Below are positions 4,753 to 17,010 of a stretch of 17,010 nucleotides of DNA, piece by piece. Source of the DNA: Comamonadaceae bacterium (GTDB taxonomy: Bacteria > Pseudomonadota > Gammaproteobacteria > Burkholderiales > Burkholderiaceae); contig CANNNB010000024.1 of the NCBI GenBank assembly GCA_947505995.1, forward strand, positions 1-17,010, given 5' to 3'. Each line of letters begins with the position of its first letter. The first letter of the stretch is position 1. The notes under the pieces are model-generated. The model ran no database searches. It was not told the DNA's origin and was given only the letters and a program-made list of their open reading frames with translations. A program made the position numbers and the translations under genes.

Positions 4753-7700
4753 ATGAACGCTCCTTTGCCTGAACACTTGCGCCAAGCGCTGGCCAACGTC
4801 ACCCTTGACGACAAATACAGCCTGAAAACTGGCCGCGCTTTTATGAGCGGTGTGCAGGCCTTGGTTCGCTTGCCAATGCTGCAGCAAGAGCGCGACGCTT
4901 TGGCCGGCAAAAGAACAGGCGCATTAATCAGTGGTTATCGCGGCTCGCCATTAGGTGGTTACGACCAGGCTTTATGGAAGGCTAAGTCTTACCTTGAAAA
5001 ACACAACATTGTTTTTCAACCTGGCGTCAACGAAGAGCTAGCGGCGACAGCACTGTGGGGTACCCAACAATTGGGTTTTGCGCCACCAGGTAGCCAAAAG
5101 TTAGACGGCGTTTTTGGAATTTGGTACGGCAAAGGACCGGGTGTCGATCGCTGCTCTGATGTGTTCAAGCACGCCAACATGGCCGGCACCACCGCGTGGG
5201 GCGGCGTCTTGGCTGTCGCAGGGGATGATCACATTGCCAAAAGCTCTACGGCGGCGCACCAAAGCGACCATATTTTCAAAGCCTGTGGCTTGCCGGTGTT
5301 CTTTCCTGCGTCAGTTCAAGAAGTCTTAGATCTGGGCGTTCACGCCATTGCACTAAGCCGTTTCGCCGGCGTGTGGTCTGGCATGAAAACCATTCAAGAA
5401 ATTGTTGAATCGAGTGCAACGGCCGACATCAACGCCGATCGCGTCAAGATTGTTTTACCTGAGTTTGAAATGCCCCCAGGCGGCCTTCATATCAGGTGGC
5501 CTGACGCGGCCCTTGATCAAGAGGCGCGTTTGTTTGATTACAAATGGTACGCAGCACTGGCCTACATTCGCGCCAATCGTTTGAACCACAACGTGATAGA
5601 GGGCCCAAATGATCGCTACGGCATCATGGCCAGTGGCAAAGCCTACAACGACACAAGACAAGCCTTGCTAGATCTGGGTTTAGACACAGAAACCTGCCAG
5701 CGACTGGGCATTCGTGTTCACAAAGTTTCTGTTGTTTGGCCTTTAGAAGCGCAAAGCACACGAGAGTTTGCCAAGGGCCTGAAAGAGATTTTGGTGGTTG
5801 AAGAAAAACGCCAAATTATCGAATACCAACTGAAAGAAGAGCTTTACAACTGGCCCGATTCACTGCGTCCTCGCATCGTTGGCAAGTTTGATGAGCTTGA
5901 AGGCGATGACTCTGGCGGCGAGTGGTCTATGCCCAATCCAATGGCGCACCGCCTTCTGCGGGCCAATGCCGATCTCACGCCCACCTTAATTGCCAAGGCA
6001 CTGGCCAAGCGGCTTAAAAAGCTTGATTTGCCGTCTGATGTGCTGGCTCGCATTGATGGCCTGTTGCAGATCATCAACGCCAAGGAAAGTGCACAAAACA
6101 GTTTGGTTCTTAATCCATCAGCAGAACGCATGCCTTGGTTCTGCTCAGGGTGTCCCCACAATACCAGCACCAAAGTACCCGAAGGATCACGTGCCATGGC
6201 GGGTATTGGTTGCCATTTCATGAGTGTGTGGATGGACCGCAGCACCATTGGCTTTACGCAAATGGGGGGCGAGGGTACGCCCTGGATTGGCCAGCAACAT
6301 TTCAGCAACGAAACGCATGTGTTTGCCAACATTGGTGATGGCACTTATTTTCACAGCGGCATCTTGGCCATCCGTCAAAGCATTGCCGCCGGCGTCAACA
6401 TCACCTACAAAATTTTGTACAACGATGCGGTGGCCATGACTGGTGGACAACCCGTTGGAGAGCGCGCTGAAGGACACAGCGTTGTGCAAATTGCGCAAAG
6501 CATGCGCGCTGAAGGCGCCATGGTCATCAAAGTCGTGACCGATGAACCCGAAAAATACGACGGTGTTGCTTTAGCTGAAGGCGTTTTGGTTCATCACAGG
6601 GATGAACTCGATGCAGTACAGCGTGAACTGCGTGAAGTGAAAGGTTGCACGGTCATTATTTATGACCAAACATGCGCCACTGAAAAACGTCGGCGTCGCA
6701 AGCGCGGCACGATGGTCGATCCAGCCGTGCGCGTCATGATCAATGAGCTGGTGTGTGAGGGTTGTGGCGATTGTGGCGTCCAATCCAATTGTTTGTCGGT
6801 TGAGCCTCTTGAAACCGAATTCGGCCGCAAAAGAACCATCAATCAAAACAGTTGTAACAAAGACACCAGTTGCCTCAAAGGCTTCTGTCCCAGTTTTATC
6901 AGTATTGAAGGTGGTCAATTAAAGAAAAAAACCAAAACACAGAAGTTCAGTTTTGATGCATTGCCCGCTTTGCCTTTGCCTGTACTGCCCGATTTGAGAA
7001 ATACACATCAACCCTATGGCGTGGTGGTTGCGGGTGTTGGCGGGACTGGTGTGATTACCATCGGTCAACTTTTGGGCATGGCCGCGCACTTAGATGGTAT
7101 TGGCATTGTGACTCAGGATTCTGCTGGCTTGGCCCAAAAGGGCGGCGCTACTTGGAGTCATGTTGTTTTGGCAAAGCACCAAGATGATATTCAAACCACA
7201 CGTGTCAGCATGGCCGCAGCAGATTTAATTCTGGGATGTGATCCCATCGTGACGGCTGGTAAAGAAACTTTATCACGCATGATGGAGGGCAGAACACGCG
7301 TTGCTTTGAATTCTCACAGCACACCCACTGCTGAGTTTGTTAAAAATACGCTTTGGCAAAACCCTGCTGACAGTTGTGCGGCCGACATTGCTTCTACTGT
7401 TGGCATTGGTGGTTTGGCTTCATTTGATGCTGACCATCTTTCGTCTCAACTGATGGGCGATACGATTTACATCAACCCCATGCTTTTGGGTTATGCCTGG
7501 CAAATGGGCTGGGTCCCATTAAGCCTTGATGCATTGAAACGTGCCATTGAATTAAATGAAGTGGCTGTGGCGCAAAACCTTGCCGCCTTTGAATGGGGGC
7601 GTCATGCGGCACATCAATTGCCTGCTGTTGAAGCCTTGTTAAAACCACTGCAAATCATGACTTTTAAAAAACGTGAACGCCTAGAAGACTTGATTGCCAC

Positions 7701-8307
7701 ACGTGTTGAATTTCTAACAGATTATCAAAACGCTGCTTATGCCAAAGAATACGAAAACTTCGTCTTGAAAGTCAAAGCCAAGGAAAGCGTTTTGGGTTCA
7801 TCCTTGTTAACTGAAACCGTAATTCGTCAACTGTTCAAATTGATGGCTTACAAAGATGAATACGAAGTGGCTCGCTTGCACACCGACAAACAGTTCCTAG
7901 AACGCGTTAAAACGCAGTTTGAGGGCGATTTCAAGATTTTCTACCATCTAGCCCCTCCCATGCTTTCCAAACGCAATGAGAAGGGCCAACTCATTAAACA
8001 AAAAATGAGCCCTCACATGGTTTTGGTTTTCAAAGTTCTGGCTCAACTGAAGTTTTTGCGCGGAACGGCTTTGGATATCTTTGGCCGCACCGAAGAGCGA
8101 CAAACTGAACGTGCTCTTATTCAAGAATACAAAGATGCTATTGATGAAATTCTGGTTTCTCTAAGTTCAGAAAATCATGCACTCGCCATCAAGATGGCCA
8201 ACGTGACTGAACAAATCAAAGGATTTGGTCATGTGAAGGAAAAACACTTGGCTGCTGTCATGGTTCAGTGGCAAAGCTGCATGGATGGATTCAGAAAAGC
8301 AATTTAA
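4753..8307 (+). CDS. Indolepyruvate (2-oxoacid) ferredoxin oxidoreductase, fused
   Basis: A single 1184-residue polypeptide fusing the parts of a thiamine-diphosphate 2-oxoacid:ferredoxin oxidoreductase. Order: N-terminal pyrimidine-binding-like domain (GYRGSPLGGYD, PGVNEELAATALWG, about 50-110); ThDP-binding domain with the FCSGCPHNTST and GIGCHF stretches and GDG at 528-530 followed by LYNDAV; a cysteine-rich Fe-S segment about 668-714 (VCEGCGDC, then SCNKDTSC and FCP); a gamma/IorB-like domain from about 755 (GVGGTGVITIGQLLG, QKGGATWSHV); and a C-terminal extension about 950-1184 seen in the proteobacterial fused form. Family knowledge: oxidative decarboxylation of aryl pyruvates from aromatic amino acids to aryl-acetyl-CoA. 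The actual substrate and electron acceptor are not shown; no ferredoxin or ligase gene is adjacent. The 3' third is noticeably AT-richer than the 5' third. A hairpin terminator follows at 8374. Confidence 0.9.
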   Translation: MNAPLPEHLRQALANVTLDDKYSLKTGRAFMSGVQALVRLPMLQQERDALAGKRTGALISGYRGSPLGGYDQALWKAKSYLEKHNIVFQPGVNEELAATALWGTQQLGFAPPGSQKLDGVFGIWYGKGPGVDRCSDVFKHANMAGTTAWGGVLAVAGDDHIAKSSTAAHQSDHIFKACGLPVFFPASVQEVLDLGVHAIALSRFAGVWSGMKTIQEIVESSATADINADRVKIVLPEFEMPPGGLHIRWPDAALDQEARLFDYKWYAALAYIRANRLNHNVIEGPNDRYGIMASGKAYNDTRQALLDLGLDTETCQRLGIRVHKVSVVWPLEAQSTREFAKGLKEILVVEEKRQIIEYQLKEELYNWPDSLRPRIVGKFDELEGDDSGGEWSMPNPMAHRLLRANADLTPTLIAKALAKRLKKLDLPSDVLARIDGLLQIINAKESAQNSLVLNPSAERMPWFCSGCPHNTSTKVPEGSRAMAGIGCHFMSVWMDRSTIGFTQMGGEGTPWIGQQHFSNETHVFANIGDGTYFHSGILAIRQSIAAGVNITYKILYNDAVAMTGGQPVGERAEGHSVVQIAQSMRAEGAMVIKVVTDEPEKYDGVALAEGVLVHHRDELDAVQRELREVKGCTVIIYDQTCATEKRRRRKRGTMVDPAVRVMINELVCEGCGDCGVQSNCLSVEPLETEFGRKRTINQNSCNKDTSCLKGFCPSFISIEGGQLKKKTKTQKFSFDALPALPLPVLPDLRNTHQPYGVVVAGVGGTGVITIGQLLGMAAHLDGIGIVTQDSAGLAQKGGATWSHVVLAKHQDDIQTTRVSMAAADLILGCDPIVTAGKETLSRMMEGRTRVALNSHSTPTAEFVKNTLWQNPADSCAADIASTVGIGGLASFDADHLSSQLMGDTIYINPMLLGYAWQMGWVPLSLDALKRAIELNEVAVAQNLAAFEWGRHAAHQLPAVEALLKPLQIMTFKKRERLEDLIATRVEFLTDYQNAAYAKEYENFVLKVKAKESVLGSSLLTETVIRQLFKLMAYKDEYEVARLHTDKQFLERVKTQFEGDFKIFYHLAPPMLSKRNEKGQLIKQKMSPHMVLVFKVLAQLKFLRGTALDIFGRTEERQTERALIQEYKDAIDEILVSLSSENHALAIKMANVTEQIKGFGHVKEKHLAAVMVQWQSCMDGFRKAI

Positions 8308-8357
8308 TTTGCGCTCTGACTTTGTCCTTGTATTCTTCTTTTATATAGATTAATACA

Positions 8358-8369
8358 TAGTAGTAGTAG
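8358..8369 (+). repeat. Four tandem TAG triplets, DnaA-trio-like
   Basis: TAG is repeated four times directly after the AT-rich run TTATATAGATTAATACA and before ATAAGGGGAG and the TGTGGACAA box. Family knowledge: the DnaA-trio is a 3'-GAT-5' type repeat that starts near a DnaA box, after a short GC-rich gap, and runs toward the unwinding region on the strand whose 3' end faces the box. Order and polarity agree here. The triplet run is short and sits about 18 bases from the box, so chance cannot be excluded. Confidence 0.4.
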
Positions 8370-8373
8370 ATAA

Positions 8374-8410
8374 GGGGAGACTTGTTCTGTGGACAAGTCT
8401 CTTTTTTCTT
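8374..8410 (+). terminator. Rho-independent terminator of the oxidoreductase gene
   Basis: A perfect 9-bp stem GAGACTTGT (8377-8385) and ACAAGTCTC (8393-8401) encloses a 7-base loop and is followed at once by six T and then CTTT. Position 67 bases after the stop codon and polarity fit termination of the plus-strand oxidoreductase transcript. The right side of the loop and stem also reads TGTGGACAA, a DnaA-box variant. Confidence 0.85.
8388..8396 (-). promoter_or_regulatory. DnaA-box variant TTGTCCACA
   Basis: TGTGGACAA on the plus strand is TTGTCCACA on the minus strand, one base from TTATCCACA and a form accepted by DnaA in several bacteria. It overlaps the loop and descending stem of the terminator hairpin, so its presence could be a coincidence of that hairpin. 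Confidence 0.4.
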
Positions 8411-8414
8411 TATA

Positions 8415-8427
8415 GATCAAGGAATTG
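8415..8427 (+). promoter_or_regulatory. Near-consensus IHF-like site
   Basis: GATCAAGGAATTG matches the WATCAANNNNTTR integration-host-factor consensus at every defined position except the first, which is G instead of A/T. It lies between the left and right DnaA-box groups, where an architectural bend would be expected in an origin. A 13-mer with several free positions is weak evidence alone. Confidence 0.3.
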
Positions 8428-8491
8428 AATCATCTGGAAGGGTGTGCACCAGTCTGCTCCGGAGCTGTCACTCAAATATGAACAACTTTAG

Positions 8492-8502
8492 AAATTTTAA
8501 AA
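8492..8502. repeat. 11-bp AT-rich repeat, copy 1
   Basis: AAATTTTAAAA, identical to the copy at 8560-8570. The two direct copies lie 68 bases apart and bracket the palindrome and both right-hand DnaA boxes. In AT-rich sequence such repeats arise easily, but the bracketing is regular. Confidence 0.5.
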
Positions 8503-8505
8503 AAC

Positions 8506-8514
8506 TGTGGATAA
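8506..8514 (-). promoter_or_regulatory. Perfect DnaA box (TTATCCACA on the minus strand)
   Basis: TGTGGATAA on the plus strand is an exact match to the Escherichia coli high-affinity DnaA box. I noticed no other exact copy in the window by eye. It forms the left arm of the 20-bp palindrome at 8509-8528. Confidence 0.65.
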
Positions 8515-8528
8515 CCACGTGGTTATCC
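8509..8528. repeat. Perfect 20-bp palindrome centred on CACGTG
   Basis: Two perfect 10-base half-sites, GGATAACCAC and its reverse complement. Read on the minus strand it could fold as an 8-bp stem with an ACGT loop, followed four bases later by six T (8504-8499 in plus coordinates), a possible weak terminator for the minus-strand gene ending at 8577. It is not a parS site: beyond the CACGTG core the arms differ from GTTTC/GAAAC. A binding site for DnaA plus a second dimeric protein is another possibility. Confidence 0.6.
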
Positions 8529-8533
8529 TAAAT

Positions 8534-8542
8534 CTATCCACA
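8534..8542 (+). promoter_or_regulatory. DnaA-box variant CTATCCACA
   Basis: One mismatch (first base) from TTATCCACA, 19 bases beyond the perfect box and in the opposite orientation. It ends at CATG and is followed by the second AT-rich repeat. Confidence 0.45.
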
Positions 8543-8559
8543 TGTTTGTTCATTGACAA

Positions 8560-8570
8560 AAATTTTAAAA
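8560..8570. repeat. 11-bp AT-rich repeat, copy 2
   Basis: AAATTTTAAAA, the second copy of the repeat at 8492-8502, lying just after the downstream end of the minus-strand Spy/CpxP-like gene. Confidence 0.5.
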
Positions 8571-8576
8571 TACTAT

Positions 8577-9092
8577 TCAGGGATGCATCTTGGCGTGATG
8601 TCCCATAGGCCCTTTTGCAAACAACTTTTGAGTATGCGTGTCAAAGACTTTTTGTTGTGCAGGCGTTAAGCTGGCATAAAAGGTTTTACTTGCATTCATT
8701 CGCTTGGTAATTTCAGCATCTCTTTCCGTTTTTTGCGCCATCATTTTATCGATGCGTTCTGGTGTTGAGAGTTTTTCCAATTCTGAAGGTGTAGGTGGCG
8801 CAGGTCGTTTAATGGGTGTTTTCATGACGCCAACAAAGCTTTGCCAAGCTGCTTCCTGCGAAGCTTGAAGTTGCAAATAGACCTTCATTTCATCCAAATG
8901 TTTTTGATGGCGTTGCGTTCGCATGGCATCGCGGTGTTCATGCATTTTTGGGCCGCCCATCATGCTGTGCATTCTGTCGCTTCCAGGCACGCCTTGTGAG
9001 CCTGACGCAGGACTTTGTGCAAAACTAATGGTGGTGACCAAGGTACCCAGTACCACAAAGGAGGAAAAGGCCAAACGGGTCATTGAAGTCAT
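8577..9092 (-). CDS. Spy/CpxP-like LTXXQ periplasmic protein, His/Met-rich
   Basis: A 171-residue secreted protein. Residues 1-25 form a signal peptide with likely cleavage after SFA (25/26), so it acts in the periplasm. The helical remainder carries the family motif LTPAQ at 142-146 and a degenerate first copy near 75-83 (QASQEAAW). Family knowledge: Spy/CpxP proteins are ATP-independent periplasmic chaperones or stress sensors that dampen envelope-stress signalling. Unusual are the His- and Met-rich stretches (about 41-69 and the tail GHHAKMHP), which suggest metal binding; this is inference. The first ATG is chosen because AGGAA lies about 6 bases upstream on the minus strand; a second Met at codon 4 lacks that spacing. 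It lies 65 bases after pirin on the same strand and may be transcribed with it. Confidence 0.82.
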   Translation of the reverse strand: MTSMTRLAFSSFVVLGTLVTTISFAQSPASGSQGVPGSDRMHSMMGGPKMHEHRDAMRTQRHQKHLDEMKVYLQLQASQEAAWQSFVGVMKTPIKRPAPPTPSELEKLSTPERIDKMMAQKTERDAEITKRMNASKTFYASLTPAQQKVFDTHTQKLFAKGPMGHHAKMHP

Positions 9093-11314: not shown

Positions 11315-12545
11315 GACGCAAAGAATAAGGTTTTTGACAGCGCTCTGGTTGGCGGTTTGCATTTCTATGGCTGCGGCCGTTTCACTCGGCATGACACGAT
11401 TTGCCTATGCTTTGTTGTTGCCTTCCATGCGCGAAGACTTGGCTTGGACCTATACCTTAGCAGGCAGCATGAACACTTTCAACGCGGTGGGGTATTTGAT
11501 TGGCGCCTTGATCACGCCTCGTGTGTTGAAGCGTTGGGGTGTTGTGCATGTACTGATAAGTGGGTCCTTCATTGCGTCTTTGTTGATGGCACTGACAGGC
11601 TTTTTTTCTGAAACCGCCCTTCTTTTGATTCAGCGCTTGTTGGCTGGATTGGTCAGTGCGGTGGTATTCGTTTCTGGTGGTCTGTTGGCTGCAAGACTGG
11701 GTGCTCATTTGCCTTCGCAGTCGGGCTTGTTGTTGGGTCTTTATTACGGCGGTACAGGCTGGGGAATTGTATTGTCTGCACTGCTTGTTCCCGTCGCGTT
11801 GTTGGCAGCGTATGAGGAAGCCCTTGTTCATCCATGGAAGTGGGCTTGGTGGGTTTTGGCGCTTGCGTGTTTCACCATGACGCTTGCGCTGCTTGCCATC
11901 CGTAAGCCCATGCAGCATTGGACATCTGAGCGGATACCTTTAGAGGCGAATGACGCCATGCTTAATCACCAAGTCACTCAAATGCATTGGCCAGACTGGG
12001 TGTTCGGACTTGCAGGTTACGGCCTGTTTGGCGTGGGCTACATTGGCTACATGACTTTTGTGGTGGCTGTGTTGCGCGAGCAAGGGGCAAGCCCCACGGA
12101 GATTACGTTCTTTTATGCCTTGCTCGGCCTTGCTGTGGTTGCTTCTTCCAGAATTTGGGCCGGTCTGTTGAATCGCTATCGAGGCGGGCAGTCTTTGTCG
12201 ATTCTGAATGCGTTGCTAAGTCTTGCCACGCTCATCCCCGCCATCACATCTTCTTGGCCCATGATGCTTGTGTCGGGGTTGTTGTTTGGGGGGGTGTTTT
12301 TATCGGTGGTTGCATCCACCACGGCCATGGTGAAGCACAACCTTGCACCCTCGCAGTGGGCGACGGGCATCAGTGTTTTCACTGTGGTCTTTGCGGTGGG
12401 GCAAATCACAGGACCCGCCATGGTGGGTTGGATTGCAGACGGGCCAGGCGGTCTTAAGCGAGGGCTTCTTTTCTCTGCTGCAGCCTTGCTAATTGGCGCC
12501 GTGTTGGCGTGGCAGCAAAAGCCTGTTCAGCAAAACGGAAAGTGA
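11313..12545 (+). CDS. MFS transporter, YbfB/YjiJ family
   Basis: A 410-residue major-facilitator protein with about twelve hydrophobic segments. The N-terminal signature GMTRFAYALLLPSMREDL, right after the first membrane segment, and the YLIGALI stretch in the second fit the YbfB/YjiJ group of uncharacterised inner-membrane permeases; a GVGYIGYMTFVV segment opens the C-terminal half. Substrate unknown; being divergent from an ene-reductase, shared induction by an electrophile or aromatic compound is possible but unproven. The ATG at 11313 is chosen because it places the start a few residues before the first helix; the longer frame from 11202 is antisense to the reductase gene. There is no Shine-Dalgarno at usable distance. 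It ends one base before the stop of the convergent aldolase-like gene. Confidence 0.87.
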   Translation: MTQRIRFLTALWLAVCISMAAAVSLGMTRFAYALLLPSMREDLAWTYTLAGSMNTFNAVGYLIGALITPRVLKRWGVVHVLISGSFIASLLMALTGFFSETALLLIQRLLAGLVSAVVFVSGGLLAARLGAHLPSQSGLLLGLYYGGTGWGIVLSALLVPVALLAAYEEALVHPWKWAWWVLALACFTMTLALLAIRKPMQHWTSERIPLEANDAMLNHQVTQMHWPDWVFGLAGYGLFGVGYIGYMTFVVAVLREQGASPTEITFFYALLGLAVVASSRIWAGLLNRYRGGQSLSILNALLSLATLIPAITSSWPMMLVSGLLFGGVFLSVVASTTAMVKHNLAPSQWATGISVFTVVFAVGQITGPAMVGWIADGPGGLKRGLLFSAAALLIGAVLAWQQKPVQQNGK

Positions 12546-13488: not shown

Positions 13489-15525
13489 ATGTTTTACCCA
13501 CAAGAATTTGATGTGATCGTTGTTGGCGGTGGACATGCCGGCACGGAAGCCGCGTTGGCGTCAGCGCGCATGGGTTGTAAAACACTCTTGCTGACCCACA
13601 ACATTGAGACCTTGGGCCAGATGAGCTGCAACCCCTCCATCGGCGGCATTGGCAAGGGCCATTTGCTGAAAGAAGTCGATGCTTTGGGCGGCGCCATGGC
13701 CTTGGCTACAGACGAGGGGGGTATTCAGTTTCGCATTCTGAACAGCTCTAAAGGCCCCGCTGTGCGAGCAACGCGTGCTCAAGCTGATCGAATTTTGTAC
13801 AAGGCGGCCATTCGCCGCCGCCTTGAGAACCAAGAAAACTTGTGGTTGTTTCAACAAGCGGTTGACGATCTCATGGTGGAGTCAAATGGCGTAGAAGACC
13901 GTGTGGTGGGGGCTGTTACGCAAGTGGGTGTTCGCTTCCGATCGAAAACAGTGGTTCTAACGGCCGGCACATTTTTGGATGGCAAGATTCATGTGGGCTT
14001 AGAAAACTATTCAGCTGGGCGGGCGGGTGATCCGCCGGCGGTCAGTTTGTCGGCTCGTTTGAAAGATCTCAAGTTGCCCCAAGGCCGCTTGAAAACGGGT
14101 ACGCCGCCGCGCCTGGATGGGCGCACCATTGATTTTTCAAAGTGCCAAGAGCAACCGGGTGATGGCATGCCGGGCGGCTTGAATGCAGAGGCGGGCGTTC
14201 CTGTTTTTAGCTTCATGGGTCGCGCAGACATGCACCCTGCACAGATGCCTTGCTGGATCACGCATACCAATGAGAAAACCCACGACATCATTCGGTCGGG
14301 GTTTGATCGAAGCCCCATGTTCATGGGAAAGATTGAAGGTGTTGGGCCAAGGTATTGCCCAAGCGTGGAAGACAAAATCAACCGCTTTGCCGACAAAGAC
14401 AGCCATCAGATCTTTTTAGAACCCGAGGGTCTCACCACCCACGAGTTTTATCCCAATGGCATTTCCACCAGTTTGCCTTTTGACATTCAATACGCCTTGG
14501 TTCGGTCTATGAAGGGGCTTGAGAATGCGCACATTCTTCGGCCCGGTTACGCCATTGAATACGACTATTTTGACCCGCGCTCATTGAAGAGCAGCTTTGA
14601 AACGCGTCAAATAGGCGGGCTATTTTTTGCGGGGCAAATCAATGGCACGACGGGTTACGAAGAGGCCGCCTCGCAGGGGCTGTTTGCCGGCATCAATGCG
14701 GCGCTTCAGTGTCGGTCCTTGTCTGGCTCTGGCAACGACATGGGCGGCGCATGGTTGCCAAGCCGCGACCAAGCCTATTTAGGCGTGCTGGTGGATGATC
14801 TCATTACCAAAGGCGTGACAGAGCCTTACCGAATGTTTACCAGCCGGGCGGAGTTTCGTTTGCAACTGAGAGAAGACAACGCCGACATGCGCTTGACGGA
14901 GGTGGGCCGACAAATGGGCCTGGTCGACGATGAGCGCTGGGCTTCTTTTTGTACAAAGCGCGAAGCTGTTTCACGTGAAACAGAGCGACTAAAGTCCACT
15001 TGGGTCAACCCTAGAAACTTACCCGATTCAGAGTCGGCGCGCGTACTGGGCAAGATCATCGAGCATGAGCACAACTTGTTTGACCTGCTCCGCCGACCCG
15101 GTGTGAGTTATGAAAGCTTGGTGTCCTTGGATGCCGGCCGCTTTGTTTCAGCATCTGTTTCACGTGAAACATTGGGCGAGATCGCTGCGTCGGTGATCGA
15201 GCAGGTTGAGATTGCTGCCAAGTATGCAGGGTACATTGATCGACAAAAGGTCGAGGTTGAACGCGCCGCACATTTTGAGAATCTGAAATTGCCCGCAAAG
15301 CTTGATTACCTTTTGGTCTCGTCTTTGTCGATCGAAGCTCGGCAAAAGTTGGCGAAACATCGCCCTGAAACATTGGGGATGGCGTCCCGAATTTCTGGAA
15401 TTACCCCTGCAACCATTTCCTTGCTGCTGATTTATCTCAAGAGGGGTGGCTTTCAGGAGTTCATGCCGGCCAAGCCAGCGGAGACGGTGCTGGCGGCGGA
15501 AGGTGCGGCGAGCCTGACGCCATGA
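13489..15525 (+). CDS. mnmG: tRNA uridine-5-carboxymethylaminomethyl modification enzyme MnmG
   Basis: FAD-dependent subunit that, with MnmE, installs the carboxymethylaminomethyl group on wobble U34 of several tRNAs. It has 678 residues against about 629 in Escherichia coli. The FAD-binding GGGHAG motif is at 13-18, Cys47 lies in [14 protein letters not shown], and [35 protein letters not shown] and the C-terminal [18 protein letters not shown] blocks are intact. GGTGA just before ATG acts as a modest ribosome binding site. Residues 494-498 and 557-561 both read VSRET because each encodes a perfect parS site; the second lies in a segment about 10 residues longer than in the E. coli protein as I recall it. 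The stop overlaps the rsmG start (ATGA), so the two genes are translationally coupled. Confidence 0.97.
14967..14982. promoter_or_regulatory. parS: parS centromere site 1, inside mnmG
   Basis: TGTTTCACGTGAAACA is an exact match to the canonical ParB-binding parS site, and the palindrome extends one base each side to 18 bp. It is read in the mnmG frame as part of AVSRET (VSRET at 494-498). ParB nucleates here for ParA-driven origin segregation. Site 2 has the same sequence 189 bases downstream. Confidence 0.95.
15156..15171. promoter_or_regulatory. parS: parS centromere site 2, inside mnmG
   Basis: A second exact TGTTTCACGTGAAACA, in the same codon phase as site 1 and again encoding VSRET (557-561). 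The centre-to-centre distance to site 1 is 189 bases, and to site 3 is 970 bases. Confidence 0.95.
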
Positions 15526-16229
15526 CGGCAGATGGCCTGATTGAGGCTGGCATTCTTCAGGAGCTTTCTCTTGGAATTGAAGCCTTGGGCTTGAACGTCG
15601 CGGAGGCGCAGCAACGACAGTTGATGGGCTACATGGCGCTGATTCAAAAATGGAACAAAGTTTATAACCTGACGGCGCTTCGCCGGCCGCAGGAGATCTT
15701 GACGCACCACTTGTTAGACAGCTTGTCGGCTATTTCGCCCTTGCTCAGGCACATTGTCAAAACAAAAAGCGTTCCTCATGCGGAAATTGAGTTGCTGGAT
15801 GTGGGCTCTGGTGGGGGCTTGCCCGGTGTGGTCATTGCCATTTGCTGCCCCAACGTCAGCGTTACATGTGTCGACACTGTCTCCAAGAAGGCTGCGTTTG
15901 TGCAGCAGGTAGCAGCCAGTTTAAAGTTGTCAAACTTGCGCGGTGTTCACGCTCGGGTAGAAAACCTGACGGGGCCTTTTGACATCATTTGTGCTCGAGC
16001 GTTTGCTTCTTTGCCTGATTTTGTCAATTGGTCTATCGGTGCTTTGTCTGATGAGGGTGTTTGGATGGCCATGAAGGCTAAGTTACCCGAAGCGGAGATG
16101 GCCGCGCTACCTTCTTTTGCGGAGGTGTTTCACGTGGAACAACTTCAAGTTCCTGGCTTGGCGGCCGAACGGTGCATGGTCTGGATGAAAAAATCAGCAA
16201 CTTTGTCTATTGCAGCAAGCGCGACCTGA
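15522..16229 (+). CDS. rsmG: 16S rRNA (guanine-527-N7)-methyltransferase RsmG
   Basis: Methylates N7 of G527 in 16S rRNA using S-adenosylmethionine. It has 235 residues: an N-terminal helical part with [12 protein letters not shown], the block [10 protein letters not shown], the SAM-binding glycine loop [12 protein letters not shown] at about 91-102, the acidic strand [13 protein letters not shown], and [12 protein letters not shown]. The ATG overlaps the mnmG stop by four bases. Residues 202-207 (VFHVEQ) are encoded by a parS-like site, in a different codon phase from the copies in mnmG. Gene order mnmG-rsmG-parA is a common origin-proximal block, and here a LysE gene is interposed. Confidence 0.96.
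16126..16141. promoter_or_regulatory. parS: parS-like site 3, inside rsmG
   Basis: TGTTTCACGTGGAACA differs from the canonical 16-mer at one base (A to G), a variant found in functional parS sites of other bacteria. It lies about 790 bases before parA and encodes part of VFHVEQ. Confidence 0.85.
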
Positions 16230-16915: not shown

Positions 16916-17010
16916 ATGGCAAAGATTTTCTGTGTTGCAAATCAAAAGGGCGGCGTTGGCAAGACCACCTCGGCCGTTAACTTGGCCGCTGGCTTAGCCA
17001 AAGTGGGGCA
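16916..17010 (+). CDS. parA: Chromosome-partitioning ATPase ParA (5' end only)
   Basis: The first 31 codons of a ParA/Soj ATPase, cut by the window end. It begins [18 protein letters not shown], the deviant Walker A motif with the signature lysine, followed by [13 protein letters not shown]. Family knowledge: ParA binds the nucleoid as an ATP dimer and moves ParB-parS complexes to segregate the origin region. The immediate neighbourhood of parS in mnmG and rsmG identifies this as the chromosomal, not a plasmid, ParA; parB is expected just downstream, outside the window. AAGAG about 7 bases before the ATG can serve as ribosome binding site. Confidence 0.95.

Follow-up and report, generated by a model that had tools for sequence, protein, structure and literature searches.

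Numbering of chromosomes commonly starts at dnaA, which is also where the replication origin is assumed to lie. The locus analyzed here raises the question of whether a short intergenic spacer, set among other genes, could be the chromosomal origin. The window, that is, the whole 17,010-nt stretch of DNA analyzed here, was originally predicted to hold a candidate origin between two convergent genes or, alternatively, a DnaA-titration or reactivation-type site. The features of the window are collected in Table 1.

Sequence elements of the spacer

The spacer comprises 269 nt between the convergent IOR and LTXXQ-motif genes, and its G+C content is 34%, compared with 51% for the window. The convergent arrangement and the AT-richness were thus both as predicted, and the only other clean convergent pair named in the prediction, with ends at 12545 and 12547, indeed leaves one base. 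To the right of the spacer, mnmG and rsmG (both by Pfam), three parS-like sites, and the start of a parA-like gene were all present; none of 200 shuffles of the window reached three parS-like matches to the consensus.

Table 1. Features of the window, in order of position
Feature	Position	Strand	Evidence
IOR, left neighbour: indolepyruvate-ferredoxin-oxidoreductase-like protein	4753..8307	+	Pfam POR, TPP, DUF6537
Intergenic spacer, proposed chromosomal origin (oriC)	8308..8576	.	Gene calls, alignment, skew in relatives
AT-rich stretch ahead of TAG repeats, candidate unwinding element	8336..8357	+	Invariant across six aligned LimB loci; unwinding inferred
Conserved origin module, ~190 bp	8355..8545	+	Model R1 match, 124.9 bits
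Four TAG triplets, DnaA-trio-like	8358..8369	+	Sequence; family-conserved
Two-mismatch DnaA box, overlaps last TAG triplets	8365..8373	-	Box scan
Intrinsic-terminator-like hairpin and U tract, candidate IOR terminator	8372..8406	+	Folding
DnaA box R1, one mismatch, 18 nt from TAG repeats	8388..8396	-	Box scan
IHF-like site, one mismatch	8415..8427	+	Match to IHF consensus
ATGAACAACTT, widely conserved in family module; not a recognised DnaA box	8478..8488	+	
DnaA box R2, perfect	8506..8514	-	Box scan
20-nt perfect palindrome: R2 and inverted two-mismatch box; - strand hairpin	8509..8528	.	
Two-mismatch DnaA box, inverted relative to R2	8523..8531	+	Box scan
DnaA box R3, one mismatch, inverted relative to R1 and R2	8534..8542	+	Box scan
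LTXXQ-motif protein, right neighbour	8577..9092	-	Pfam
mnmG (gidA)	13489..15525	+	Pfam
parS-like site within mnmG	14967..14982	+	Perfect match to consensus
parS-like site within mnmG	15156..15171	+	Perfect match to consensus
parS-like site within rsmG	16126..16141	+	One mismatch to consensus
parA-like gene start, cut by window end	16916..17010	+	Read by eye

Scanning of the spacer recovered the predicted perfect DnaA box (R2) and the two one-mismatch boxes (R1 and R3), along with the four TAG triplets beside an AT-rich stretch and the near-IHF site, which differs at one position from the IHF consensus; by eye, several relatives of the dnaA-dnaN type fit this consensus fully. Among 5000 dinucleotide shuffles of the spacer, a single one contained at least three boxes with no more than one mismatch, and none did so when one box had to be perfect; the sequence TAGTAGTAG, on either strand, was present in nine of 5000. 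Across the whole window, the count of boxes with no more than one mismatch, four, was equalled in 65 of 200 shuffles and is unremarkable; it is their clustering that is unusual. The spacer therefore holds what is expected of an oriC, namely a DnaA-box cluster above chance in AT-rich intergenic DNA. As for the predicted pair of AT repeats, 15-mers that are 93% alike do lie at 8492 and 8560, but their alignment columns vary among six LimB loci; the repeats are therefore probably incidental, and we rejected them as functional elements.

Conservation of the module in relatives

Among the matches listed, the closest relatives of IOR belonged to Limnohabitans or Comamonadaceae, with identities of 95% (L003, partial), 92% (L006), 90% (L004, Limnohabitans sp. 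MMS-10A-178), 88% (L002 and L005), and 87% (L001, Rim11); the next reached at most 76%. The window and the relatives grouped with it by IOR identity and gene order are referred to as LimB, a name carried by L004, whereas three genomes (G017, G028, and G047) were assigned to LimB by mnmG and dnaA identity alone. LimC and LimA are names carried by other records (e.g., L010 and L013 for the former and L037 for the latter).

Conservation of the spacer among relatives was borne out, as an alignment showed the module to be kept in six LimB loci. The module consists, in order, of the TAG repeats after the AT-rich stretch, R1, the IHF-like site, ATGAACAACTT, R2, and the inverted R3. At least 80 IOR loci were available among the matches listed, of which 78 were read, leaving out L003 and L033, which are ended by their contigs. 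Only five of these 78, all LimB, showed a cluster of boxes in the 400 bp that follow IOR, and one other locus, L078, had a single one-mismatch box there.

Pattern searches were then extended beyond the IOR loci. Of 299 family genomes, 23 contained the TAG-repeat and R1 pattern, with spacing allowed to vary by 20 nt, and of 60 genus genomes, 34 contained the R1-R2 pattern, in every case as a single occurrence; reversed-pattern controls of the former and controls of the latter gave none. The TAG-R1 distance was identical in the 23 exact family matches and one base shorter in some LimC rows. Seventeen of the 23 exact-pattern loci adjoin dnaA or dnaN.

A sequence-only model (model R1) was built from 36 aligned sequences, including the window and genus members. 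The window, itself in the training set, matched positions 3-194 of the 195 in the model, so that full length, order, and spacing are preserved; judged by sequence, the LimB module is homologous to the dnaA-dnaN module of many relatives. Model R1 matched 58 of 60 genus genomes, three of them twice, and 282 of 299 family genomes, with no match in the remaining two and 17, respectively, indicating near-universal presence among the genus genomes searched. These copy numbers are minima because stricter filters were used in the genus and family searches. Across the order, 26 of 120 genomes matched, all but three weakly, and since the only strong matches (G001, G176, and G190) are also in the family sample, we regard the model as family-level. 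Within the 80 listed IOR loci, model R1 matched directly beyond IOR in five LimB loci and approximately 2 kb beyond IOR in 15 that are LimC or near it, with no strong match in the stretch covered for the other 60, some of which are short. Two module copies, at 15524 and 21234, were observed in L021.

GC skew around the module

Cumulative GC skew was calculated over 400 kb around the module in two LimB genomes, MMS-10A-178 (G003) and Rim11 (G001), and in the LimC genome G058. In MMS-10A-178, the minimum was located at 263,327 and the spacer at 267,273, a distance of 3.9 kb, with dnaA at 183,905-185,302. Similarly, the minimum of Rim11 (528,274) was 3.5 kb from the spacer (531,750), with dnaA at 447,862-449,259. 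Thus, dnaA is 78-80 kb off the minimum in both. The LimC minimum (1,682,151) was only 656 bp from the module (1,682,807), and dnaA was approximately 240 kb away (1,442,168). As a control, the 235-kb contig of the LimA genome G010 gave a minimum 12 kb from its module, which lies between dnaA and dnaN.

The LimB genome G014 is a single contig of 2,948,795 bases, close to its stated genome size, from which 40 stretches of 20 kb were sampled up to 1.97 Mb. The stretch at 1-20 kb was positive, against the trend; the six stretches between 50 and 320 kb were negative, all 30 between 350 kb and 1.82 Mb were positive, and the last three were negative. The first of these sign changes, from negative at 300-320 kb to positive at 350-370 kb, brackets the module at 343 kb, and cumulative skew peaked with the last positive stretch, at 1.82 Mb; the point lying half a genome beyond the module is 1.818 Mb. 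The skew test proposed with the original prediction therefore came out in its favor in close relatives: the minimum lay 3.5-3.9 kb from the LimB spacer and not beside dnaA, within 4 kb of the module in all three genomes followed over 400 kb, and the sampled skew of G014 supplied the maximum. By our own score, the spacer was also the highest-scoring DnaA-box cluster in the 400 kb of both MMS-10A-178 and Rim11, comprising two perfect boxes and one with one mismatch within 300 bp, and the only TAGTAGTAG in that range.

Some skew observations stand against the origin reading. The window itself has its cumulative skew minimum at 4822, which is 3.5 kb to the left of the spacer, and the minima of Rim11 and MMS-10A-178 are likewise 3.5-4 kb to its left, near the IOR start. 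TA skew did not single out the spacer, as its lowest bins ended at approximately 340 kb in MMS-10A-178 and 620 kb in Rim11.

Position of the module relative to dnaA

Module and dnaA were both found in 53 genus genomes, on different contigs in 42 of these, leaving 11 scorable, and in all 11 they were 82-239 kb apart; 82 kb was measured in three LimB genomes and 239 kb in LimC. In contrast to these distances, mnmG was 3-15 kb from the module in 47 genomes that carry both on the same contig, and on another contig in nine more. When 30 genus dnaA loci were searched with model R1, allowing matches up to an E-value of 1, the module was found in none, while the dnaA locus of the LimA control (L081) matched with 123.7 bits. 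In L081, dnaA and dnaN are separated by 235 nt; in the 30 genus loci, the gap measures 112-284 nt. The skew and the absence of the module from the 30 dnaA loci led us to reject an origin at dnaA in LimB and LimC.

One alternative keeps the true origin at dnaA and regards the spacer as a DnaA-titration or reactivation site comparable to datA or DARS. Titration sites likewise carry DnaA boxes and IHF sites, and a perfect DnaA box was found directly upstream of dnaA in all ten dnaA loci scanned. Such sites are, however, defined by DnaA boxes that lack the origin signature and lie apart from the skew minimum, and the spacer does not fit this definition, with its TAG repeats, AT-rich stretch, and homology to the dnaA-dnaN module of relatives. 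Moreover, it is dnaA that lies 78-80 kb (MMS-10A-178 and Rim11) or approximately 240 kb (G058) from the skew minimum, and every one of the 30 genus dnaA loci is devoid of a module match. We therefore consider a titration or reactivation site very improbable and the spacer itself very probably the origin.

The original prediction held that an origin remote from dnaA would be notable in this group. This premise calls for revision: such a position does not appear to be rare in the family, as the module was away from dnaA in 41 of 83 scorable family genomes and beside it in the other 42, LimA included. These 83 were drawn from the best 130 of 282 matching genomes, a choice biased towards model-like sequences, after setting aside 24 in which separate contigs carry module and dnaA and 23 without a listed dnaA. 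In 41 of the near genomes, at most 600 bp separate module and dnaA, and all of these have a copy downstream of dnaA in the opposite orientation; G334 carries a second copy upstream. The remaining near genome, G315, was counted round the record start, since dnaA begins at 103 and the module reaches almost to the end of the contig. In the far group, the distance is 7.6-259 kb; G183 is an unsure member that was kept as far, although its second copy could be close to dnaA across the record ends. With 82 kb to dnaA in three genomes and other neighbours in the window, LimB does not occupy the usual site, the dnaA-dnaN gap. Since this location is not universal in the family, the mismatch lowers only the claim to a usual site.

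Displaced modules were observed in various surroundings. L210 (G107) has its module beside a UbiB/kinase-like frame, and L211-L213 (G184, G345, and G276) have theirs between response-regulator-like and TerB-like genes, all of these gene names being guesses from sequence; in L191 (G187), the module adjoins minD-minC. The contigs of G224, G322, G349, and G176 (contig C1) start at dnaA, and the nearest listed module match is 43-100 kb in, which suggests that numbering based on dnaA misplaces the origin.

At least 20 of the 130 listed family genomes carry two module matches; in G194 and G332, for instance, the first is at dnaA and the second 24-29 kb from it, and G334 has one on either side of dnaA. 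Copies in two-match genomes such as G049, G051, G053, G194, G332, and G334 are 0.3-46 kb apart or flank dnaA. Together with the three genus genomes matched twice, these cases would suit a scheme in which the spacer is in use along with a second, unrecognised origin, and PMC4403523 mentions proposals of double origins in certain bacteria. Nevertheless, Rim11, MMS-10A-178, and G014 each gave a single module match, and only one skew switch was observed in the 400 kb of the former two and in the sampled 50 kb-1.82 Mb of G014. Two origins in use thus seem even less probable than a titration site, and the spacer as the single origin is preferred.

A terminator-like hairpin overlapping R1

Folding analysis predicted a hairpin on the + strand of the spacer with 16 pairs followed by a U tract, in which R1 occupies the loop and the 3' arm. 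A z-score below -3 combined with a T run was obtained for all 11 LimB rows, representing 10 distinct loci (L163 and L204 come from one genome), compared with one of 21 other genus rows (L183, z-score -3.1), none of 17 dnaA-dnaN rows, and none of five other displaced rows. Every LimB row that was folded keeps the hairpin, which in L001 has a single position unpaired. Covariation was weak: 99% of cells were paired, only one pair had changed on both sides, and among 500 shuffles, 35 reached the paired percentage and 25 the covariation score. A bidirectional terminator was also considered and rejected. Because the - strand hairpin at 8509-8528 is weak in L006 and, in L002 and L005, is not accompanied by a U tract, only a + strand terminator is claimed. 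The IOR gene of LimC locus L013 is itself followed, directly after its stop, by a hairpin-like sequence, as judged by eye. On the basis of predicted folding, the LimB origin appears to double as a candidate terminator of IOR.

The strong + strand hairpin and the weaker - strand one could be taken to mean that the spacer is merely a terminator pair for convergent genes with incidental DnaA boxes, but in those LimB and LimC relatives that were measured the module coincides with the skew minimum or lies close to it and, outside LimB, occurs almost always without the hairpin (present in one of 21 other genus rows and none of 17 dnaA-dnaN rows), so we give this explanation the least credence of all.

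Min genes and the LimB arrangement

In LimC locus L013, IOR is followed in turn by minE, minD, minC, and the module (13500-15540; recognised by sequence), and MinC was confirmed in the genome of this locus. In contrast, MinC was found in none of three LimB genomes tested versus all eight others, and MinE in none of 14 LimB genomes versus all four others; LimC and LimA genomes were among those that matched. Although some LimB genomes may be incomplete, Rim11, MMS-10A-178, and the single-contig G014 agree on the absence of Min. If the Min genes were lost, the module would come to lie between two convergent genes, as in LimB.

Adjacency of dnaA and dnaN was intact in all 31 loci read, and for this reason we tend to favor the reading that the origin, rather than dnaA, moved. 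The range of states observed (a dnaA copy only, two copies, or a displaced copy only) would fit relocation by duplication and loss. It is conceivable, though we put it at somewhat below even odds, that the origin is a portable cassette of approximately 190 bp that has moved out of the dnaA-dnaN gap more than once, through duplication and loss of the old copy, and that in LimB also terminates transcription of the neighbouring gene. LimB would then have taken on the terminator role after relocation and minCDE loss. As R1 and the terminator stem would be the same DNA, DnaA loading and transcription could interact directly.

Discussion

Taken together, these results support the spacer as the chromosomal replication origin of the window's Limnohabitans (LimB); we infer that it fires and assign this reading a probability of about 0.94. 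In the proposed mechanism, DnaA would bind R1, R2, and R3, and IHF would bend the DNA between R1 and R2. DnaA would then spread from R1 along the TAG repeats, and the AT-rich stretch at 8336-8357 would open and allow the helicase to be loaded there. Newly made copies would be segregated by ParA and ParB with the parS sites located 6-8 kb away.

In about half of the 83 scored family genomes, the module lies elsewhere than at dnaA, up to hundreds of kilobases off. In the freshwater genus Limnohabitans, it is found between dnaA and dnaN (LimA), beside minC (LimC), and between convergent genes (LimB), and the occurrence of three contexts in such close relatives makes it possible to test origin movement directly. 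In the same way, the terminator-like hairpin that overlaps R1 offers a clean test of the interplay between termination and initiation. In the open-licence literature searched, mostly as listings, no account of a Limnohabitans origin or of an R1/terminator overlap within oriC was seen. Displacement from dnaA is already known from Cupriavidus; as far as searched, the LimB site itself is new, as are its homology to the dnaA-dnaN module, the coincident minCDE loss, the three contexts in close relatives, and the R1/terminator overlap.

The oriC of Escherichia coli is near gidA/mnmG rather than beside dnaA and contains an unwinding region, R1, an IHF site, and further boxes. The element order of the LimB spacer is similar, whereas flanking genes, box number, and sequence differ. 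A gidA-mioC placement of the E. coli oriC is mentioned in PMC10225481, and the same text, on Ori-Finder 2022, states that oriC is not always near dnaA.

Within Burkholderiales, the passages of PMC2864759 on Cupriavidus metallidurans CH34 describe a skew switch of chromosome 1 approximately 90 kb from dnaA-dnaN-gyrB, adjoining a 213-nt region with three perfect DnaA boxes. This origin signal is displaced from dnaA as in LimB, a likeness in described position. Passages on Burkholderia cenocepacia (PMC4948915 and PMC7364216) describe an oric1 region with DnaA boxes, repeats, an IHF site, and an AT block; a box cluster is placed there near nucleotide 1 and near the skew minimum, the exact position is called unclear, and gidA (BCAL0024) and dnaA (BCAL0423) are approximately 400 locus tags apart. 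The LimB spacer resembles oric1 in these described elements.

The repeated triplets next to a DnaA box recall the DnaA-trio of the basal unwinding system (BUS). As defined for the search described in PMC8287927, a BUS has at least three DnaA-trios 0-16 nt from a first located DnaA box with at most two mismatches. The spacer has four TAG triplets, and a two-mismatch box (8365-8373) overlaps them, whereas R1 is 18 nt away; because R1 misses the 0-16 nt rule, membership is not claimed.

A close counterpart is the dnaA-dnaN module of relatives, such as that of LimA strain B9-3 (L081), which is homologous along approximately 190 bp and shares the element order and the 18-nt gap between the TAG repeats and R1. 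The LimB copy differs from it in lying approximately 82 kb from dnaA, as measured in three genomes, and in placing R1 within a terminator-like hairpin.
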